From: Spirochaetota bacterium
Lineage (GTDB): Bacteria > Spirochaetota > JAHITG01 > JAFGFC01
NCBI GenBank assembly: GCA_016931325.1
Contig: JAFGFC010000157.1
Location: 1 to 52,011, forward strand
DNA length: 52,011 nt
Reading direction: 5' to 3'
A model generated the notes under the pieces. That model was not told the origin of the DNA. It did no database searches and worked only from the letters and a program-made list of their open reading frames with translations. This document shows positions 3,566-27,193 of the stretch, piece by piece (the stretch's first letter is position 1; every line of letters begins with the position of its first letter). The translations under genes were made by a program, and so were the position numbers.

Positions 3566-4012
3566 ATGATATATAATGAAGAGAATTGTCTGCGATATCT
3601 TAAACTGGCCCTGGGGGATTTTGAATCCGCCAAACTCGCTGTGAAAGGTCAATCCTCATGCTCCAAGATGGAGCTGAACCGTGCCTATCAAGGATTTATG
3701 CTGGCCTGTAAGGTCCTTGTATCCATTGTGAACAAGACCGATATGAACAGTAACGTGAATATTATTAAATCCGTATCACAGATCCTCAAAAGGCCTGATC
3801 TGATGGATATTAACAAATCGCTGGGCAGGCATTTTACCGGTTTCAAGGACGGCCCGTCCTATGTTTTTGATCAATCAGAGTATATTAATATAAATGAAGG
3901 CAAAAAATATTTCCAGTCTATGGCCCATATTATAGGATTAATAAAGAAAAGGATCAAAAAAGAGCTGGGTTTGAAAAAGATCAACCATTCTTTTTTTCAA
4001 AATCTTTCATAA
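3566..4012 (+). CDS. Small all-helical protein, HEPN-like, unknown
   Basis: This 148-residue soluble protein is predicted to be helical. The opening 'YLKLALGDFESAKLAV' and a later 'RAYQGFMLACKVLVS' resemble the first helices of HEPN domains, which often carry RNase activity or bind nucleotides. The R-x4-6-H motif of active HEPN nucleases is not obvious, and no nucleotidyltransferase (MNT) partner is adjacent, so a toxin-antitoxin reading is not supported. The last 32 bases overlap the 3' end of serC on the other strand. No clear Shine-Dalgarno sequence precedes the ATG at 3566. Assignment to HEPN is tentative. Confidence 0.55.
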   Translation: MIYNEENCLRYLKLALGDFESAKLAVKGQSSCSKMELNRAYQGFMLACKVLVSIVNKTDMNSNVNIIKSVSQILKRPDLMDINKSLGRHFTGFKDGPSYVFDQSEYININEGKKYFQSMAHIIGLIKKRIKKELGLKKINHSFFQNLS

Positions 4013-5153: not shown

Positions 5154-5549
5154 CTATTTTATCAGATGTTCCTTGATCAATCCCATAGCATCCTCTTTAT
5201 TCATCTCATCATCATAACCAAAGCATTCAAGGGATTTTTGATCCAGTTTATACATACGACAAATTCCTTCAAGGGTTATCTTTTCCATTGATCTTTGTAT
5301 ATCCTTATAGAGCCAATTCGCCAGAACCTTCTCCCTTATGATGCCGGCCAAGACAAAGAAAAATATCACGACAACGCAGATAAAGGCTCCATTTTTAATA
5401 ATAACAGGGAATAAGACATTATGACTGGATTTTATCTTCTCAAAGCCCAGATACCTGTGAAGAAGATACAGGATGATGCCTAAGGCGACCAGAATCCCGA
5501 TCACTCTTCCCTGTACCTTTTTTGAAAATTTCATAAGGATCTGTTTCAT
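5154..5549 (-). CDS. Two-TM protein with cytoplasmic C-terminal domain, unknown
   Basis: This 131-residue protein has two hydrophobic spans (about residues 16-33 and 48-69), a basic N-terminus and a hydrophilic C-terminal half of about 60 residues. I recognise no family. It begins five bases after the stop of the coiled-coil gene upstream and is the last gene of that run, so the two are almost certainly cotranscribed. It is a plausible membrane anchor for the coiled-coil protein. That is inference from order only. Confidence 0.65.
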   Translation of the reverse strand: MKQILMKFSKKVQGRVIGILVALGIILYLLHRYLGFEKIKSSHNVLFPVIIKNGAFICVVVIFFFVLAGIIREKVLANWLYKDIQRSMEKITLEGICRMYKLDQKSLECFGYDDEMNKEDAMGLIKEHLIK

Positions 5550-5554
5550 TTCAT

Positions 5555-6886
5555 TTACTGATACTGAATCGAATATTTTCGCTTTATAAGATCTTCCAGA
5601 TATTCGATATGATCATCCAGAAGTCTCCCTGCAATAGTTTCTGAAATACCCGGCTGCTCGCGGATGGTTTTATACAGCTGTAATGCCTTTAACAAATTGC
5701 CGCTTTTTTCAGCTTTAATACAGCTCTGGATAAAACTCTGGAACCGTTTCAACTGGATATCGGACAGGATCTCCTGCCAGTTAAAGGGAGCATAATTGCG
5801 ACCCCGTTTGAAGACCACTTCCTGGACGTCTTCGCCAAATTTCTTTTTCTTTTTAGCCTCTTCTTCGGCTTTGGTCCTTTCCCCCCCAATACTTCCCCCT
5901 TTGCCGGCACCTTCTTTTCCTCCCGCCTTTTGTTCAGGGGAGTCTATTTTTTTTTTTGCATCCCCTTGATCTTCCCCGGCCTGTGTTGCCGTTCCTTTTC
6001 CCGCGGCTCCAGATCCAGAACCCTTACCAACGCCGGCACTGGCCTGATCACCTGCTCCTTTCCGGCCCCCCAGGGTTTCAGAAGCCATCTTTTCCACTTT
6101 ATCTCGGGACCCGGAGGTAATCGTTGAAATCTCCTGAAAGATACCATCGATCTTGGGAGCGGCACCAAGTTTGACAGTAACATTTTCAATGTTCTTGATC
6201 AGAGTCGTTCCGCCCGGCAGGCCTTTCATATCCCTGAATTCATTGAAAAGGGCCTGTGATTCCTCGGCTATCCTTTCCGAATCCTCAATGATCTTGGTCG
6301 GTTGTATAAAGTCAGCATGGGCAATATCCAGCATTGACAGCGCTTCCTGAAGATCGTTCAAAGCATGACGAATATATTTTTTTGATGTTCCCTGTTTTTT
6401 CGATATTTCCGCAATGATCTCTTTGTAATGATCATCCACTCCCTGAAGCTGGGTTTCCAGCTTGGCATAGTTGGCTTTCATATCATCCAGTAATTTGTTT
6501 TTATACTCTTCCCTTTTTCCCAGCTCATCCTGAATGGCCAATTTTAAGGAATCCAGAGATGATCGGACCTGAGATTTATAACTTTCAAAAGCCGCTTTAA
6601 ATTCTTCCACTTTTGAAGACAGTTTCCCTTCGGTAACTTTGAAAAGAGAAAGTTCAGCCTGGCTTTTAGCCAGATTGGCTTCCACTTCCCTTACCCGCAT
6701 GGACAGTGATTTTACCTGCATCAGCTTTCGAGAATTATCTTCAGCCAGCATCCTTATCTGCTGCTCATTCAGCTTGTCTCGTCGAGTGGAAGACTCTTTA
6801 ATACTGACGATAAGATTATCCTTTTCACGGATAATATTCAGCAAGGCATCAACATCTTTATCCATCGGATCTTTTTTTTCTGCCAT
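5555..6886 (-). CDS. Coiled-coil protein with Gly/Ala/Lys linker, unknown
   Basis: This 443-residue protein has three visible parts. Residues about 5-215 are heptad-rich, charged and probably a long coiled coil. Residues about 270-345 form a low-complexity Gly/Ala/Lys/Ser linker. The last 80 residues look helical and TPR-like ('KAEKSGNLLKALQLYKTI'). There is no signal peptide, so it is likely cytoplasmic. A GTG at 6895 overlaps the upstream stop as GTGA and could be the start; I prefer the ATG at 6886. The neighbours are an SH3 lipoprotein before and a two-TM protein after. No known family is recognised. A scaffold or cytoskeletal role would fit the architecture but is not shown. Confidence 0.72.
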   Translation of the reverse strand: MAEKKDPMDKDVDALLNIIREKDNLIVSIKESSTRRDKLNEQQIRMLAEDNSRKLMQVKSLSMRVREVEANLAKSQAELSLFKVTEGKLSSKVEEFKAAFESYKSQVRSSLDSLKLAIQDELGKREEYKNKLLDDMKANYAKLETQLQGVDDHYKEIIAEISKKQGTSKKYIRHALNDLQEALSMLDIAHADFIQPTKIIEDSERIAEESQALFNEFRDMKGLPGGTTLIKNIENVTVKLGAAPKIDGIFQEISTITSGSRDKVEKMASETLGGRKGAGDQASAGVGKGSGSGAAGKGTATQAGEDQGDAKKKIDSPEQKAGGKEGAGKGGSIGGERTKAEEEAKKKKKFGEDVQEVVFKRGRNYAPFNWQEILSDIQLKRFQSFIQSCIKAEKSGNLLKALQLYKTIREQPGISETIAGRLLDDHIEYLEDLIKRKYSIQYQ

Positions 6887-6891
6887 TTCTA

Positions 6892-8100
6892 TCACACACC
6901 TTCATTAACTAAAAACAGGGTCAGATATTTGCCAAATATCCAGCCTGTGATTCCGTCTTTCAGTTCCACTTTATACCAGTAATTCTTTTCCCCGTTTATC
7001 TCTTCTATGGTGTCACTTCTTTCCACCACTATTACTTTATCGCCATAATTCAATGAAGTTATAACATTTTTCTTCCTCACGGACGGATCTTTTCTAACCC
7101 TGACCCTCTTCCCCAGCACATAAGCCATTTTCTTGTCCTTTAATTTTTTATTATACCGCAACAGGTATTTCACCAGCTGGATTTTTTTAGCGATCTCTTT
7201 TTGAAGTGTCGCTTTAGTTGAATCAGGAAGATCTTCATAATTGACCAGCAGGGCGGGTAAGTCGGCCTTCTTTTTTTCTGCTTTTCTTAAAAAATCAACG
7301 GCTTTCTCAAAATATTCCTTGGCCTTATCCAGCCGGTCCCGACTCAAGGCGATCTGGGCCAGAATATAATACTTCAAAGCCAGATAGAATTTGGACCTGG
7401 ATTCAAATCCTTCCAGATTTTTATAGATCCTGTCAAGGTCTTCCTGTTGCTTTAATAATATAATATTCTTATTGATAAACGCTTCTGCTTTTTCTGTACT
7501 ATTCGCTTTGGATCGCATGATCTGATCGCTCAACTCTAAAAGTTTTAACGAATACTTTTTACTGTTACTGATAAATTTTTGTATATATAACTCGGACAGG
7601 GCAAGTTGCCATTTCGCCTTATCATTCAATCCCTTGATATATTTTTCCAGAGAAGATATCCTTTCACTAATATTGGTTCTGGTTTCAAACCATTGATCAA
7701 AAGATATTTTCCCTATCTCTGAATTGGGAAATTTTTTCCATACCGGGACAAGGTCTTCTCCGTCGTAGTCCAGATCTCCCTGAACAAGATCCAGATGATA
7801 CCTTTTAGCAATCTTCTTTTTCTCATCTTTTGATCTTATTTTATTGGCCTGTTCAACTATCGCTTCATAAGTTTGAGCCTTTTTTACAAGCAGTTTAGCA
7901 TTGGAGTCATTCAATTCATATTTTTCAAAAAATTCATTGATAAAGTTGATGACCTTTTCATAATTTCCGCTTTCAAATTCCTGGTTGATTAAAATTATTT
8001 CCTGCGCAATAGATGGATCATCTTCAATGGAAATATTTTTCTTTTTTGAACAAAAGTTGAAAGAAAGCAGAACAATCAAAAAAAAGATCCGATACCTCAT
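6892..8100 (-). CDS. Lipoprotein with helical repeats and C-terminal SH3 domain
   Basis: This 402-residue protein starts with a lipoprotein signal ending in S-F-N-F-C17, so it should be lipid-anchored. The middle is helical and repeat-like ('LALKYYILAQIALSRDRLDKAKEYFEKA' region near 245-270 fits TPR helices). The C-terminal 70 residues form a bacterial SH3 domain: 'GKRVRVRKDPS', 'NYGDKVIVVE', 'YWYKVEL' and 'GWIFGKYL'. Bacterial SH3 domains usually bind peptidoglycan. The start overlaps the bioY stop by one base (TGATG), and the next gene overlaps this stop, so translation is coupled along the run. A periplasmic link between membrane and cell wall is the simplest reading. Confidence 0.8.
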   Translation of the reverse strand: MRYRIFFLIVLLSFNFCSKKKNISIEDDPSIAQEIILINQEFESGNYEKVINFINEFFEKYELNDSNAKLLVKKAQTYEAIVEQANKIRSKDEKKKIAKRYHLDLVQGDLDYDGEDLVPVWKKFPNSEIGKISFDQWFETRTNISERISSLEKYIKGLNDKAKWQLALSELYIQKFISNSKKYSLKLLELSDQIMRSKANSTEKAEAFINKNIILLKQQEDLDRIYKNLEGFESRSKFYLALKYYILAQIALSRDRLDKAKEYFEKAVDFLRKAEKKKADLPALLVNYEDLPDSTKATLQKEIAKKIQLVKYLLRYNKKLKDKKMAYVLGKRVRVRKDPSVRKKNVITSLNYGDKVIVVERSDTIEEINGEKNYWYKVELKDGITGWIFGKYLTLFLVNEGV

Positions 8101-8645
8101 CAGGCCATCCTTTTTATTGATGAAAGTAACATCGTTGCCAGAATTATTTTTAAGGCATCCCCGTAAAGAAAAGGCAGTACTCCGGCTAAAAGAGCGCCAG
8201 GCAAGCCAAGAAGGAGAGATAATCTTGCTGCACCAAATGCATAAATAATCAAATTCCCAAGAATAAGTGTCATGACAAGTTTAAATAGAGAATAGGTTCT
8301 GTCCTCTAATGACCGGCTCACGACAAAGGAAGCTATTAAAAAACCAATGATATACCCAAAAGTGGGATGCAATAAACTCATCTGTCCTGTTGCCTGGCTG
8401 GCAAAAATATTGACCCCTGCCAGGCCTAATATAATATAGACAAACTGTCCGGCCACGGCAATATACCAGGATGAGACAGCCGCCAGAGTCAGAACAGTAA
8501 AGGTCTGAAATGTGACAGGCACAGGCGAAAAGGGGAGATAGACCCTTATCTTTGCCGAAATAAAGGTTAAAACCGGGATGGCAATAAATAGAAGAATATT
8601 TTTCGATACAACAAAACCGTTTGTCTTTATGATATCTGTTCTCAT
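8100..8645 (-). CDS. bioY: Biotin transporter substrate-binding component BioY
   Basis: BioY is the biotin-binding S component of an ECF-type importer, and can work alone or with an EcfAAT energising module. The 181-residue protein has about six spans and the family signatures 'PFSPVPVTFQTFTVL', 'GLAGVNIFA', 'GYIIGFLIASF' and a late 'YGDALKIILA'. GGAGG precedes the ATG at 8645, nine bases after the ssb stop. That spacing suggests it is read with rpsF and ssb. No bioM, bioN or biotin synthesis genes are in the window. Membership of a ribosomal-protein operon is unusual for this gene. Confidence 0.93.
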   Translation of the reverse strand: MRTDIIKTNGFVVSKNILLFIAIPVLTFISAKIRVYLPFSPVPVTFQTFTVLTLAAVSSWYIAVAGQFVYIILGLAGVNIFASQATGQMSLLHPTFGYIIGFLIASFVVSRSLEDRTYSLFKLVMTLILGNLIIYAFGAARLSLLLGLPGALLAGVLPFLYGDALKIILATMLLSSIKRMA

Positions 8646-8654
8646 TCAAGCCTC

Positions 8655-9125
8655 CTAGAACGGTATCTCTTCATCATCCAGTGGTTCATCGAAATCTTCA
8701 ACCACTTCACTTTCAGTACCCGTATTTTCAGGTGCTTCAGAAACGGGAACGGTTTCTTCCGGCTGTGGGACCTGGGCCTGTCCCTGACCCTGACCGGAAC
8801 TGCCCAGAAATTGTACCCTGTTAGCGATCACTTCAATGGTATGCCGTTTTTCCCCCTGCTGGGTTTCCCAAACCCTGTGCTGTAACCTTCCCTGAACCGC
8901 TATCTGCCGACCTTTGTCAAGATACTTGGCGCAATTCTCAGCCGCCTTGTTCCACACGATAATATTGAAAAAATTGGCTTTCTGTTCTGATCCACTATTC
9001 TGCCTTTTAACAAAAGCGTTATTCGCTATTTTCAGTGTCGTAACCGGTGTCCCCGAGTGAGTATACCTTAAAATAGGTTTTTCCGTCAGGCGACCCACCA
9101 GTGTTACAGAATTAATATCGCTCAT
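8655..9125 (-). CDS. ssb: Single-stranded DNA-binding protein
   Basis: SSB coats single-stranded DNA in replication, repair and recombination. The 156-residue protein has an N-terminal OB fold (about residues 1-110, with 'SVTLVGRLTEKPILRYT' and 'FFNIIVWNKAAENCAKYL'). A flexible Gln/Gly/Pro/Glu-rich linker follows, then the acidic tip DDEEIPF, which recruits partner proteins. Size and layout are typical. It lies 20 bases after rpsF, the conserved order in bacteria. The usual next genes rpsR and rplI are replaced by bioY. Confidence 0.96.
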   Translation of the reverse strand: MSDINSVTLVGRLTEKPILRYTHSGTPVTTLKIANNAFVKRQNSGSEQKANFFNIIVWNKAAENCAKYLDKGRQIAVQGRLQHRVWETQQGEKRHTIEVIANRVQFLGSSGQGQGQAQVPQPEETVPVSEAPENTGTESEVVEDFDEPLDDEEIPF

Positions 9126-9145
9126 AGACTATCACCCCGCTTATC

Positions 9146-9415
9146 TTATTTGATAAACATGTGTCTTAAAATATTATCATTGATCAAAAGCTTTTTGTTA
9201 ATCTGTTTAATGGCTGATGTGGGTATTTCGATGTTCAGGATCACATAAAAACCCTGGGTTTGCTTCCCTATAGGATAGGCCAGTTTCCTTGACCCCCATT
9301 TTTCTTCCTTTATGACTTTGGCATTGCCTGCTTTTAAAAGCTCTTTTACTTTACCAATGACTTCCTCTGCGTTATCTTTGTCTTTTGTGATCAGTACCAG
9401 TTCATACTTTTTCAT
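9146..9415 (-). CDS. rpsF: 30S ribosomal protein S6
   Basis: S6 binds the central domain of 16S rRNA together with S18. The 89-residue protein matches the family from 'YELVLITKD' at the start through 'WGSRKLAYPIGKQTQGFYVILN' split around residues 41-62, to 'LLINDNILRHMFI' at the end. It lacks the acidic C-terminal extension found in some species. GGGAGG lies before the ATG at 9415 and is the right arm of a hairpin (9423-9445) with a CCG in the loop, so translation may be autoregulated. It heads the rpsF-ssb-bioY run. Confidence 0.95.
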   Translation of the reverse strand: MKKYELVLITKDKDNAEEVIGKVKELLKAGNAKVIKEEKWGSRKLAYPIGKQTQGFYVILNIEIPTSAIKQINKKLLINDNILRHMFIK

Positions 9416-9548: not shown

Positions 9549-9896
9549 TTAAACTTCCATATAAGGTTTTCTACCCAGAGCGTTGGATATGGGTACGGTA
9601 AAGATCTCACAGATCTTTTGACTTGAGATATCGATCTGGCTTTCCTTCAAAATCGAATCAATCTCATGGATGATCTCTTCTGTGTCAACTAAAGCGAGTA
9701 CAAGCCTTGAAAAAGGCTTTTCTCCTTCCATTGTGAATTTCAGGCCACCAAAAACAGGAACACTCAACGGCAGGGCCTCTTCAAACGAACGTGCCTCTAT
9801 AACATTGGAATTCAAGATACCGACTTCAACAAGCGTGGATAAAATAGATTCGAGATACTTTTCTTTATAAATGATCACCATTAAAAGATATAACAT
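9549..9896 (-). CDS. PII-like small regulatory protein
   Basis: This 115-residue protein fits the ferredoxin-like beta-alpha-beta repeat of the PII/CutA-like superfamily: a first strand 'LLMVIIYKE', a helix with 'LESILSTLVEVG', a long central loop, a strand 'SRLVLALVD', a second helix and a final strand 'KICEIFTVPISNALG', which resembles the end of PII proteins. The GlnB uridylylation and ATP-binding motifs are not evident. It starts six bases after the stop of the PTS EIIA gene, with AAGG upstream, so the two form an operon. A regulator of a transporter or enzyme is likely; the ligand is unknown. An internal start at 9881 is possible. Confidence 0.65.
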   Translation of the reverse strand: MLYLLMVIIYKEKYLESILSTLVEVGILNSNVIEARSFEEALPLSVPVFGGLKFTMEGEKPFSRLVLALVDTEEIIHEIDSILKESQIDISSQKICEIFTVPISNALGRKPYMEV

Positions 9897-10425: not shown

Positions 10426-10465
10426 AATAATATTACTTTCATTCTGAAAGGCAAATAATATTACT
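10426..10465. repeat. Pair of 12-base direct repeats upstream of the EIIA gene
   Basis: AATAATATTACT occurs exactly at 10426-10437 and 10454-10465, 28 bases apart from start to start. The second copy includes the stop codon of the OmpA-like gene. Each copy is one base short of a perfect palindrome. The spacing of just under three helical turns would suit a regulator dimer pair, but chance in AT-rich DNA is possible. Confidence 0.4.
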
Positions 10466-13460
10466 CGCGTTCAGGGGCTTTGGCACCGGGTTTGATCAGA
10501 ATAAATTCCACACGCCTGTTCTTAGCCCGGCCTTCTTCTGTATCATTGGGCGCTACGGGATATTTAAAGGCCAATCCAATAATATTAAGTTTGTCTGCCT
10601 TGATCCCTTCTTTGACAAGGTAATTGTATACTGATTCAGCCCGGCGTTTTGAAAGATCAAGGTTGTATTCCATGGTACCTATATTGTCCGTATGACCTTC
10701 TATCCTTACATTATACGTTGGAAACTTCTCCAAAATCTGCATAACTCGTTCCAGTATTTTAAAGGCATTGCCTCTCAAGTCTGCCTTATTATAGGCAAAT
10801 TCAATATTACTGATCTTTATCCGCCAGCCATAAGGGGTCTTTATGACCAGAACATCAACACTCATCGTCTTATTGACGGTCCTTATATTTCCCAGTATAT
10901 CTTCCACGATCAGTTCCAGAGCGTAATCCATAGCGCTTTCAACCAGTTCACCCTTTTTATCCCTTCCATCCCAGAGGATCTCCTGACCCGGGAGTTCTTT
11001 GCCATCCCAGTCAATAAAAAGACTTTCCCTCTTTCCCGACCGTATGGGATAAATATTCAATTTCCAGCTTTTGATCTTCTTTTTATCATAAGAGAATATT
11101 TTAATCTTCAACAGGTCATTTTCGCCATCCCCATCCGGTGAAAACATCTCCGGTTCAAATTCAAAATCAACATCAGGTGATTTTGTATCTATTTTGATCT
11201 GAATTTTTTCTGTGTAGGTTTTGTTACCCAGGACATCCTCAACAAAAGCAAAAACATAATATTTATTTTTTGACTGCACCAGTTTTCCATCATCGCTTAC
11301 CCCGTTCCACAGTATCTCCCCGGCGGGTATACCACTGCCTTCGAATTTCTTGAATGTTTTTTCCGGTGAAGAGGTCTCGGATATGACGATTGTCCACTTC
11401 TTTATCAGCGATTTATCCTCAACATTAAAAAGGAATTTAATGATATCATTCTCCTCATCTCCATCAGGAGAAAAAATATCCGGTTCAAACTTTAATTTTA
11501 TACTGGGTGGGGTCTGATCCACAAGGATCTGTTTGGGAAATGATTCAGGATGATTTCCGCTATCATACCAGGCCTCAAATCTATAATAATAGAGACCATC
11601 GGTTACGGGTTTACCATTACTATCGATTCCCTCCCAGGTTATATCCTTTGGTACATCACTTTGGCCCTCAAAGGTCTTGGTCTTTTTGCCGTCATTATCC
11701 GTAATGGTCAAAAGCCATCGCTGAAGACCGTTACTATCCGATATATAGGTTTCCAGTACCACCTTATCCATAATACCGTCCCCATTGGGCGAAAAAGCAG
11801 GAATATCCGCTGAAATGGCTACACTCTGCTTGGCTGTGGTCAACGTGATCTCCCGCACAGATCGCTTTACAACATTGCCGGCTCTGTCTTTTCCACGAAC
11901 GATGAAATCATAATTCCCATCCGGGGCCAGCACATTCCGGTCTGTTTTACCATCCCAATCGACCTGAGTTATCTTTTTTCCTTCCCATTTGTAGGTCTTC
12001 ATGACCGTGCCTTCTTTGTCCTGTATAACAGCTGAAAATTCATCGTCATTCTCGGCGATAAGATCCAAGTCAATTTTAACCGAGTCCTTTACGCCATCGC
12101 CGTTGGGTGAAAAGATATGGCTCTCCGCTCTCAAACTAACCTCAGGGGGAGTATTATCCACTTTAAATTCTAACGCTTTGGTGGTGGCTTCATTTCTTTT
12201 TTCATCCAGGGCTTTGGCTATAATTTTATACTGACCGTCTTTAACCCGTGTCCCTTTCTCGTCAATCCCATCCCACACGATCTTGTCAGGGACCGGGGCC
12301 TCTTTCTTCTTTTCGAATAGTCTGGTAAATACCTTTTTTAATGTGAGTTTCCCTTTCAGCGTATCGATATCGGGGCTGGTATATTTTTTTACTGGTTTAT
12401 TATTCTGATCAAGGATCTCTATCTCCCATGATCTTAAAACTTTATTGTCATCGATAGCCGGTGTAATTTCAAGGTAATCAGCATTTCCATCATAATTGGG
12501 GGAGAAATCTTTCAGATTCAATTCAAGGGCTGTGTCAGGGGGCGATGTATCGACTGACCCGAAATAGATGTTGGCCCCTAAAAAATGCTCCGTCTCATTA
12601 TTCCTGGTGGATACGAAAGCATAATTTATTTCAGGTTGTATATTATTGACCTGAAATTTATATCCTGCCCCTGCTGAAAAGGTCGCAAAATCAGATTCAA
12701 TCTGATACCCGAGTCTTAAGGATATTTTTTCCTTGATCATATTCTCCAATCCGAACCCTATGGAGAATTCATTAGCTTTTCTGAAAATAAAATCAGCGGA
12801 TAAGATCGTGTCAACATGGTTTATAATATTAAAACTGGCTGATGGGCCTGTCCGCAGAGTAATAGGAGGTGAGATAACCACATCATTTAAAGAAAGATAG
12901 GATCCGATGTTGATAATGTTAAAACCTATTCTAAAGTTCTTTAAAAATTTATTTTCCCTTTTCGCTGTATATGGTTGAAAATGATAAATACCTCCTAAAT
13001 TCAACCCCAGCGTGATCCCGTCATCATTATAATATTCGGCTTTGAGGAAATTCAATCCCAGCCCGACAAAGAGTTTTTCTGTGAACACTTTGGAAAAATT
13101 AAGATTGATCCCGGTAGCGTTATTCAGACCCTGATCCAGTGCATTAGCCCCAAAATAACGGATATTTCCCGAGACGACTCCCCTTGATGTCGGCTGAAGA
13201 TAGGATATCTGTAAAAAATTATTAAATCCCAGAATATCGCCGTATGTAAAAGAAAGCACAGGAATTTCAACATCTGCTGATGAAGCCGGAGAAAGGATAT
13301 AAACAGCGGGTGAAAATATTCTGGCGGCACTCACAGAACCGCTGCCCAGAGCCTGGGCATCTCCTCCATACTCCAGAATCTGAGATTCATAGAACTGGGC
13401 ATTTAATATATTTGAAATTAATAACAGATTCAACCAGATTAAATATAATAATTTTTTCAT
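10461..13460 (-). CDS. Giant envelope protein: PorV/UPF0164-like barrel, five FlgD-type Ig repeats, OmpA domain
   Basis: This 999-residue protein has a signal peptide (about 1-21). Residues about 22-300 are rich in alternating strands ('ALGSGSVSAARIFSPAVYI') and resemble the FadL/PorV-like UPF0164 barrels of spirochaetes. Five Ig-like repeats follow, each opening with FSP(N/D)xDGxxD near residues 318, 449, 553, 661 and 771; these resemble FlgD Ig repeats. An OmpA domain closes the protein (about 880-990), with 'IEGHTDNIG', 'LSKRRAESVYNYL' and 'NRRVEFIL', which binds peptidoglycan. The promoter lies at 13537-13565. It may tie the outer membrane to the cell wall across a thick periplasm; binding or transport by the barrel is unknown. 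Confidence 0.85.
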   Translation of the reverse strand: MKKLLYLIWLNLLLISNILNAQFYESQILEYGGDAQALGSGSVSAARIFSPAVYILSPASSADVEIPVLSFTYGDILGFNNFLQISYLQPTSRGVVSGNIRYFGANALDQGLNNATGINLNFSKVFTEKLFVGLGLNFLKAEYYNDDGITLGLNLGGIYHFQPYTAKRENKFLKNFRIGFNIINIGSYLSLNDVVISPPITLRTGPSASFNIINHVDTILSADFIFRKANEFSIGFGLENMIKEKISLRLGYQIESDFATFSAGAGYKFQVNNIQPEINYAFVSTRNNETEHFLGANIYFGSVDTSPPDTALELNLKDFSPNYDGNADYLEITPAIDDNKVLRSWEIEILDQNNKPVKKYTSPDIDTLKGKLTLKKVFTRLFEKKKEAPVPDKIVWDGIDEKGTRVKDGQYKIIAKALDEKRNEATTKALEFKVDNTPPEVSLRAESHIFSPNGDGVKDSVKIDLDLIAENDDEFSAVIQDKEGTVMKTYKWEGKKITQVDWDGKTDRNVLAPDGNYDFIVRGKDRAGNVVKRSVREITLTTAKQSVAISADIPAFSPNGDGIMDKVVLETYISDSNGLQRWLLTITDNDGKKTKTFEGQSDVPKDITWEGIDSNGKPVTDGLYYYRFEAWYDSGNHPESFPKQILVDQTPPSIKLKFEPDIFSPDGDEENDIIKFLFNVEDKSLIKKWTIVISETSSPEKTFKKFEGSGIPAGEILWNGVSDDGKLVQSKNKYYVFAFVEDVLGNKTYTEKIQIKIDTKSPDVDFEFEPEMFSPDGDGENDLLKIKIFSYDKKKIKSWKLNIYPIRSGKRESLFIDWDGKELPGQEILWDGRDKKGELVESAMDYALELIVEDILGNIRTVNKTMSVDVLVIKTPYGWRIKISNIEFAYNKADLRGNAFKILERVMQILEKFPTYNVRIEGHTDNIGTMEYNLDLSKRRAESVYNYLVKEGIKADKLNIIGLAFKYPVAPNDTEEGRAKNRRVEFILIKPGAKAPERE

Positions 13461-26390: not shown

Positions 26391-26461
26391 GCGGCCGTAG
26401 TTTAATGGTAAAACCCCAGCCTTCCAAGCTGGTTATGTCGGTTCGATTCCGATCGGCCGCT
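26391..26461 (+). tRNA. tRNA-Gly (anticodon TCC)
   Basis: The 71-base sequence folds as a full cloverleaf: a seven-pair acceptor stem GCGGCCG/CGGCCGC, a four-pair D stem GTTT/AAAC, an anticodon stem CCAGC/GCTGG with loop CTTCCAA, and a T stem GTCGG/CCGAT with loop TTCGATT. The anticodon TCC reads GGA and GGG glycine codons. The discriminator is T and no CCA is encoded, so CCA is added by enzyme. A TPR lipoprotein gene starts 16 bases after the tRNA and is probably on the same transcript. Confidence 0.95.
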
Positions 26462-26476
26462 TTATATCAGTATACA

Positions 26477-27193
26477 ATGAGAATAAAAAACATTTATATT
26501 ATTATTTTACTCTTTCTCTTCCTCTTTCATTGTTCAAAATCACAGGTAGAGATGGCCAGGGATAAAGAAAATTTTGCCAAACTTACCACTCAGGGTGATA
26601 TTTTATATAATGATTCGGATTATGTGTCCGCTCTGCCTTATTTTTTAAAGGCAGAAAAGATCGCTCCTAAAGATGGCTTATTACTCTACAAAATCGCCTT
26701 CTGTTATGATAAAGGGGAAAAGGACCTTGTCAATGCTAAAAAATACTATGAACGATCATTGAAATTTCTTAAAACCAATGATCATATCAGTGAAATGGCC
26801 GGGGCTTATTTCAATCTTGGTGTGATTGCCCAGCGCAAGGATAATTTTGAAGAAAAATATAATCATTTTGCTGCCGCCTACTCGCTGCTCAGCAAGATCG
26901 AGGAGATGGGAAAAGCCTCAGGGATCGACTTTTTTCGATTGGGATATTATGCCATGGACAGCAAACAGTATGATCTTTCCATAAAATATTTTAAAAAAGC
27001 CATTCATGCTCTGAGTGTTGAAAATCCAAACCATTTTTACCATGCCGGGGCTTATTTTAACATTGGCAAGATCTATTGGGATAATAATGATATAAAGCAG
27101 GCTCTTTCTTACTGGAAAAAGGCTCTTGATCTGGAACCTGATAATGCCATGTATAAAGAGTGGTATGACAAAGCCCTTTTAGAACAAGATTAA
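26477..27193 (+). CDS. TPR-repeat lipoprotein
   Basis: This 238-residue protein starts with a hydrophobic signal ending L-F-H-C19, a relaxed lipobox, then a Ser/Lys-rich stretch. The rest consists of TPR repeats: 'YVSALPYFLKAEKIAPKDG' near 50, 'YDLSIKYFKKAI' and 'DIKQALSYWKKALDLEPDN' near the end. TPRs mediate protein contacts; the partner is unknown. I chose the ATG at 26477, because an upstream reading would run through the tRNA. No Shine-Dalgarno sequence precedes it. The 3' end overlaps the opposing NSS transporter gene by four bases. Confidence 0.78.
   Translation: MRIKNIYIIILLFLFLFHCSKSQVEMARDKENFAKLTTQGDILYNDSDYVSALPYFLKAEKIAPKDGLLLYKIAFCYDKGEKDLVNAKKYYERSLKFLKTNDHISEMAGAYFNLGVIAQRKDNFEEKYNHFAAAYSLLSKIEEMGKASGIDFFRLGYYAMDSKQYDLSIKYFKKAIHALSVENPNHFYHAGAYFNIGKIYWDNNDIKQALSYWKKALDLEPDNAMYKEWYDKALLEQD

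Follow-up and report, generated by a model that had tools for sequence, protein, structure and literature searches.

The window, the whole stretch of 52,011 nucleotides that was analysed, is contig C188 of a Spirochaetota genome (G000; 2.88 Mb in 204 contigs, 95% complete). On its minus strand rpsF, ssb and bioY are followed by genes for three proteins designated P0003, P0002 and P0001, with successive gaps of 20, 9, −1, −4 and 5 nt. Upstream of rpsF lie genes for an OmpA-domain protein, a PTS EIIA-type protein and a small ORF, the gaps on to rpsF being 51, 6 and 133 nt. The features of the locus, in window coordinates, were as follows.

5154–5549, minus strand: P0001, small protein of 131 aa with two transmembrane (TM) segments at residues 12–30 and 53–71 (ORF)
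5555–6886, minus strand: P0002, coiled-coil protein (ORF; 443 aa from the likely ATG, 446 aa from a GTG at 6895)
5558–5794, minus strand: P0002 residues 368–446, the C-terminal TPR/MIT-like domain of three helices (model, structural neighbours, remote relatives in family A7)
5795–6073, minus strand: low-complexity Gly/Ala/Lys linker of P0002, residues 275–367 (pLDDT <50, composition)
6338–6868, minus strand: P0002 residues 10–186, predicted to form one long helix (AlphaFold2 pLDDT about 90 for most of its length; periodicity)
6716–6835, minus strand: conserved head of P0002, residues 21–60 in GTG numbering (62–68% mean pairwise identity, six full rows)
6892–8100, minus strand: P0003, predicted lipoprotein of 402 aa in which TPR-like helical repeats precede an SH3_3 domain at the C-terminus (ORF, Pfam, model, relatives)
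6922–7107, minus strand: SH3_3 domain of P0003, residues 332–393 (Pfam PF08239, E 6e-9)
8100–8645, minus strand: bioY (PF02632, E 3e-31), a local neighbour outside the conserved unit
10461–13460, minus strand: large protein of outer-membrane type that carries CHU_C, FlgD-Ig and OmpA domains (Pfam)

The last three genes of the run had been described in the original prediction as an envelope trio joined by overlaps or a five-base gap. They are real minus-strand ORFs at the positions given there (6892–8100, 5555–6895 and 5154–5549), with a 4-nt overlap between P0003 and P0002 and a gap of 5 nt between P0002 and P0001 when P0002 is read from the GTG at 6895. Judging from the sequence, the ATG at 6886 is the more likely start of P0002, because AAGGTG lies 10 nt upstream and the starts of the relatives align there; the P0003–P0002 gap is then 5 nt. 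The genes that usually follow rpsF and ssb are rpsR and rplI; in the window (8655–9415) bioY and the P0003–P0002 pair stand in that place. Neither of two small ORFs, at 3566–4012 and 9549–9896, matched any Pfam model at E up to 1.

P0003 had been read as a lipoprotein with helical repeats and a peptidoglycan-binding type of SH3 domain. The SH3_3 match exceeds the curated cut-off (36.3 bits against 27). The repeats are weaker at the sequence level, the best TPR score being 19.1 bits against a Pfam cut-off of 25.7; the predicted structure has a TPR-like fold with structural neighbours up to Z 13.3, the leading ones being repeat proteins of a general kind. In this model (mean pLDDT 70) helical repeats occupy residues 120–322 approximately and the SH3 sheet residues 324–397, and the N-terminal third is poorly predicted. 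The first Foldseek match was a Campylobacter periplasmic flagellar-motor scaffold (E 3.6e-3). The PDB sequence search returned TPR, designed and other unrelated proteins, CpoB being the best (E 5e-6), and in the PHROGs search the SH3 region matched an amidase family. All three members with an N-terminus have a Cys after a hydrophobic stretch. The residue before it is F in the window, N in G001 and G in G004 (M-T-G-C), so the lipobox of the window protein is irregular and P0003 is a putative lipoprotein. Another irregular lipobox occurs in the same genome, in a TPR protein at window positions 26405–27193 with H preceding the Cys of its signal stretch. Scanning of the genome-contig collection with P0003 gave no match. 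SH3 proteins at six further loci (L006–L010 and L014) were rejected as orthologs because the match to P0003 was confined to the SH3 domain and the architecture differed.

The description of P0002 as a cytoplasmic coiled-coil protein with a Gly/Ala/Lys linker and a TPR-like end was borne out: no TM segment was predicted, and periodicity, composition and a helical C-terminus agree with it. The AlphaFold2 model was built from 7 sequences (mean pLDDT 66). Its long helix comprises 177 residues and would measure about 26 nm if straight; the helical hydrophobic periodicity of residues 10–190 was attained by none of 500 shuffled sequences. Outside the head, mean pairwise identity over the six full rows was 45–54% at residues 141–200, 50% at 221–240, 37–45% in the C-terminus and 12–24% in the linker, the length of which ranges from 58 to 276 aa among the relatives. 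A rod with conserved ends and a variable tether would be expected of a scaffold or adaptor protein.

The C-terminal domain of P0002 shares a three-helix fold with the MIT domains of katanin p60 and Vps4 (rmsd 1.5–2.3 over 60–64 residues, Z 6.9–7.5) and with TPR hairpins (Z 6.7), values below 8, which may reflect merely a common arrangement of helices. Unlike the katanin and Vps4 domains it is not attached to an AAA ATPase, and the MIT Pfam models gave no match to it at E up to 1. PDB sequence searches returned nothing at E <0.4 for this domain and nothing at E <0.03 for whole P0002, and Foldseek found nothing below E 0.78 for the whole model, long-helix matches being disregarded. Neither P0002 nor P0001 belonged to a Pfam or NCBIfam family above cut-off or matched a PHROG at E 0.01.

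Both hydrophobic segments expected of the third protein were found in P0001. The genome carries two copies, the second (locus L042, 8469–8867; contig C183) being 32% identical and distant from any P0002 copy; it sits between phosphoribosyltransferase-like and glycosidase-like genes, labelled by eye. A search of 385 genomes gave no credible relative outside G000, the sole outside hit (in G109; E 8.6e-4) being discarded with three internal stops.

Of 392 Spirochaetota genomes searched, 7 have a full-length relative of P0002 (G000, G001, G002, G004, G010, G022 and G033), although a contig end truncates the copy in G001. These are all three examined genomes of the class of G000, all three examined of that of G010 and the single one examined of that of G004. 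When 84,980 species were scanned with a sequence pattern, the same six other genomes and no more were returned, and a scan of viral contigs (query A4) yielded no relative. The 392-genome search also gave seven weak hits (L056–L062). Of the five that were read, one (L060, in G212) is a protein of the A7 type, considered below, with the shared C-terminal domain; the other four (L056, L057, L059 and L061) looked unrelated and were set aside.

G001, G002 and G004 have relatives of P0003 that extend beyond the SH3 domain, the G002 copy being truncated where its contig ends; other hits were essentially to the SH3 region, and no match at E 0.001 was obtained in G010, G022 (81% complete) or G033 (76% complete). 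The P0003 gene immediately precedes that of P0002 in the same orientation in three of the four genomes with both (G000; G002, at 17 nt; G004, at 23 nt from the likely start). The fourth genome, G001, has P0003 truncated at the end of one contig (C68) and P0002 starting inside another (C112), which would fit a pair broken by contig ends but does not prove it. The pair thus occurs in two classes, with sequence identity of about 30%, and its other neighbours differ: a zinc metallopeptidase and a peptide transporter in G004, znuA in G002. Of the proposed trio, then, the P0003–P0002 pair is conserved and P0001, with credible matches confined to G000 among 385 genomes, is not, so the trio as a unit was ruled out. 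The proposed coupling to bioY also failed, since among the loci read bioY adjoins the pair in this window only; the neighbours are others in G001 and G004, and the G002 contig ends inside P0003. The outcome that the original prediction named as refuting it, genes that do not stay together, thus holds for P0001 and bioY but not for P0003 and P0002.

P0002 is immediately followed, in G010, G022 and G033, by the gene for that genome's best match to the OmpA-domain protein of the window; in G022 and G010 a further protein matched the same query comparably or more weakly. These three genomes form one class, so the adjacency may be a single event. In the window the OmpA-domain gene, on the strand of P0002, is separated from it by 3.6 kb on the upstream side, which we take as a second, weaker instance; in G001, G002 and G004 the ortholog is not near P0002. 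The window protein resembles the Lsa66-type OmpA proteins (NF053608) over residues 309–756 (E 2e-78), but at 264 bits it falls below the cut-off of 700 and is not a member. In G004 (L078, 1751–8901) the OmpA/FlgD-Ig ortholog comes directly after a run of flagellar rod and P-ring genes (FlgE/F/G, FlgA, FlgI and rod-binding families), at 27 nt. FliF was detected in six of the seven P0002 genomes, so most P0002-bearing cells are probably flagellated; G022 (81% complete) gave no match. No flagellar gene was seen beside the P0003–P0002 pair in the loci read.

A profile of the P0002 C-terminal domain (A6) matched proteins in 34 of 385 genomes, namely the seven P0002 genomes and 27 others (E 4e-6 to 1e-3). 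Loci were seen for 23 of the 27, and in 21 of these the protein matched one family, A7, although seven of the 21 had served to build the A7 profile; in 12 of the 23 loci the domain matched twice, flanking a coiled coil. A7 is an unnamed spirochaete family (L093, L095, L096, L098, L103, L105 and L107) with a very conserved C-terminus, and the four members scanned received no Pfam or NCBIfam name at the cut-offs of those collections. Profile–profile comparison linked the P0002 domain to A7 at E 2e-6 (probability 89). Seven A7 members were aligned; six have an N-terminal TM segment followed by arginines, and the seventh is cut. The positive-inside rule places the arginine-flanked side in the cytoplasm, so the body of A7 is predicted to be cytoplasmic. 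A7 and P0002 have the C-terminal domain and a coiled coil in common, but A7 has two domain copies, often an N-terminal TM segment, and no P0002 head; the P0002 members, each with one domain copy and no TM segment, fall outside it. In the seven P0002 genomes the A6 profile found P0002 alone. Its sensitivity is borderline, since G009 gave no match although its congener G032 did, and we do not take the result to mean that A7 and P0002 exclude each other. Three loci (L101, L108 and L115) represent a second A7 branch, in which the next gene, by eye, is prepilin peptidase-like.

We tentatively propose that deep-branching Spirochaetota have an undescribed envelope-associated scaffold of which P0003 and P0002 each form a part, with a bridge that is encoded elsewhere or does not exist; the proposal has a reasonable chance of being right, if somewhat less than an even one. 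P0002 would be a cytoplasmic rod whose long helix dimerises or bundles. Its conserved head would join rods or bind a partner, and the TPR/MIT-like domain on its flexible tether would bind a client. P0003 would be a periplasmic lipoprotein with helical repeats that bind protein and an SH3 domain that binds the wall; in the class of G010 the OmpA-domain outer-membrane protein would take its place in the pair. P0002 has neither a signal nor a TM segment and P0003 is predicted to lie outside the membrane, so the two could not touch directly. P0001 might serve as a bridge here but not in the relatives. For both reasons two parts of one envelope-linked process are favoured: probably a membrane protein whose gene lies elsewhere connects the two sides, or they share a process (wall or periplasmic flagella) without touching. 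Of the chain through wall, membrane and cytoplasm that had been suggested, the lipoprotein and coiled-coil ends are thus retained across two classes, and the membrane link, P0001, is not conserved. The P0003–P0002 and P0002–OmpA pairings are both compatible with an envelope-linked scaffold, as are the restriction of P0002 to the examined genomes of three classes, its conserved head and C-terminus around a variable linker, and the structural models. Against it count the separation of the two proteins with no conserved local bridge, the position of the OmpA-domain gene away from P0002 in G001, G002 and G004, the number of directly seen adjacencies (three), the irregular lipobox in the window and the middling confidence of the models. 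None of the findings speaks directly to the suggested role in sensing or cell shape.

An alternative is that the pair is an accessory of the periplasmic flagellum, P0003 being a collar-like TPR part, P0002 a cytoplasmic organiser of the motor or pole, and the OmpA-domain protein an outer anchor. The distribution of FliF, the rod and P-ring genes ahead of the OmpA ortholog in G004 and the Foldseek match of P0003 all point that way. The flagellar collar of Borrelia likewise includes an exported protein with TPR domains, although SH3, the domain of P0003, has no occurrence in that account (PMC8609358). We nevertheless regard this alternative as unlikely, given that the pair adjoins no flagellar gene in the loci read, that the link runs through the OmpA-domain protein in one genome only, that the TPR matches of P0003 are generic, and that FliF was not matched in G022. 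Similarly unlikely is that P0002 acts alone as a cytoskeletal filament like CfpA or an intermediate filament and that P0003 is merely co-expressed. The long helix with conserved head and tail would suit such a filament, and PMC2776988 describes CfpA of Treponema as cytoplasmic, restricted to spirochaetes, rich in coiled coil and filament-forming. One of the seven P0002 members approached the crescentin rod model (PF19220; E 0.007, below cut-off), the window member not being listed; none of the seven reached the cut-off of that model or of SpiroCoCo (NF047515, 125 bits), from whose matches at E up to 1 P0002 was absent. A literature search on SpiroCoCo found no paper. A lone filament also leaves the conserved pairing with envelope genes unexplained, and we know of no pairing of CfpA with a wall-binding lipoprotein. 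Finally, the pair might be only a unit of expression, in which one promoter serves a lipoprotein and a coiled-coil protein whose roles are unrelated. P0001 and bioY are clearly local, and unrelated genes do share this stretch, because only short gaps separate the pair from bioY, ssb and rpsF in the run. The P0003–P0002 order is, however, kept in two classes despite different neighbours (G004 and G002), and we consider such a unit rather improbable.

The scaffold reading could be widened to a phylum-wide cytoskeletal scaffold of spirochaetes built of coiled-coil rods with MIT/TPR ends, which in many families would be membrane-tethered and two-domain (A7), and in the deep classes soluble and operon-coupled to wall-binding proteins of the outer envelope, tying the cytoplasm to the wall. 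This broader version is put forward as a long shot. What was found is a small, deep-branching and uncharacterised gene pair that is linked through one domain to a broader, unnamed spirochaete family. Given their shape and periplasmic motility, spirochaetes must couple cytoplasm, wall and outer membrane strongly, and to our knowledge few components of that coupling are known. P0002, which occurs in every examined genome of three classes and is paired with putative wall-binding proteins, is a concrete candidate for such a component, and its domain link to A7 opens a route to tests in cultivable spirochaetes.
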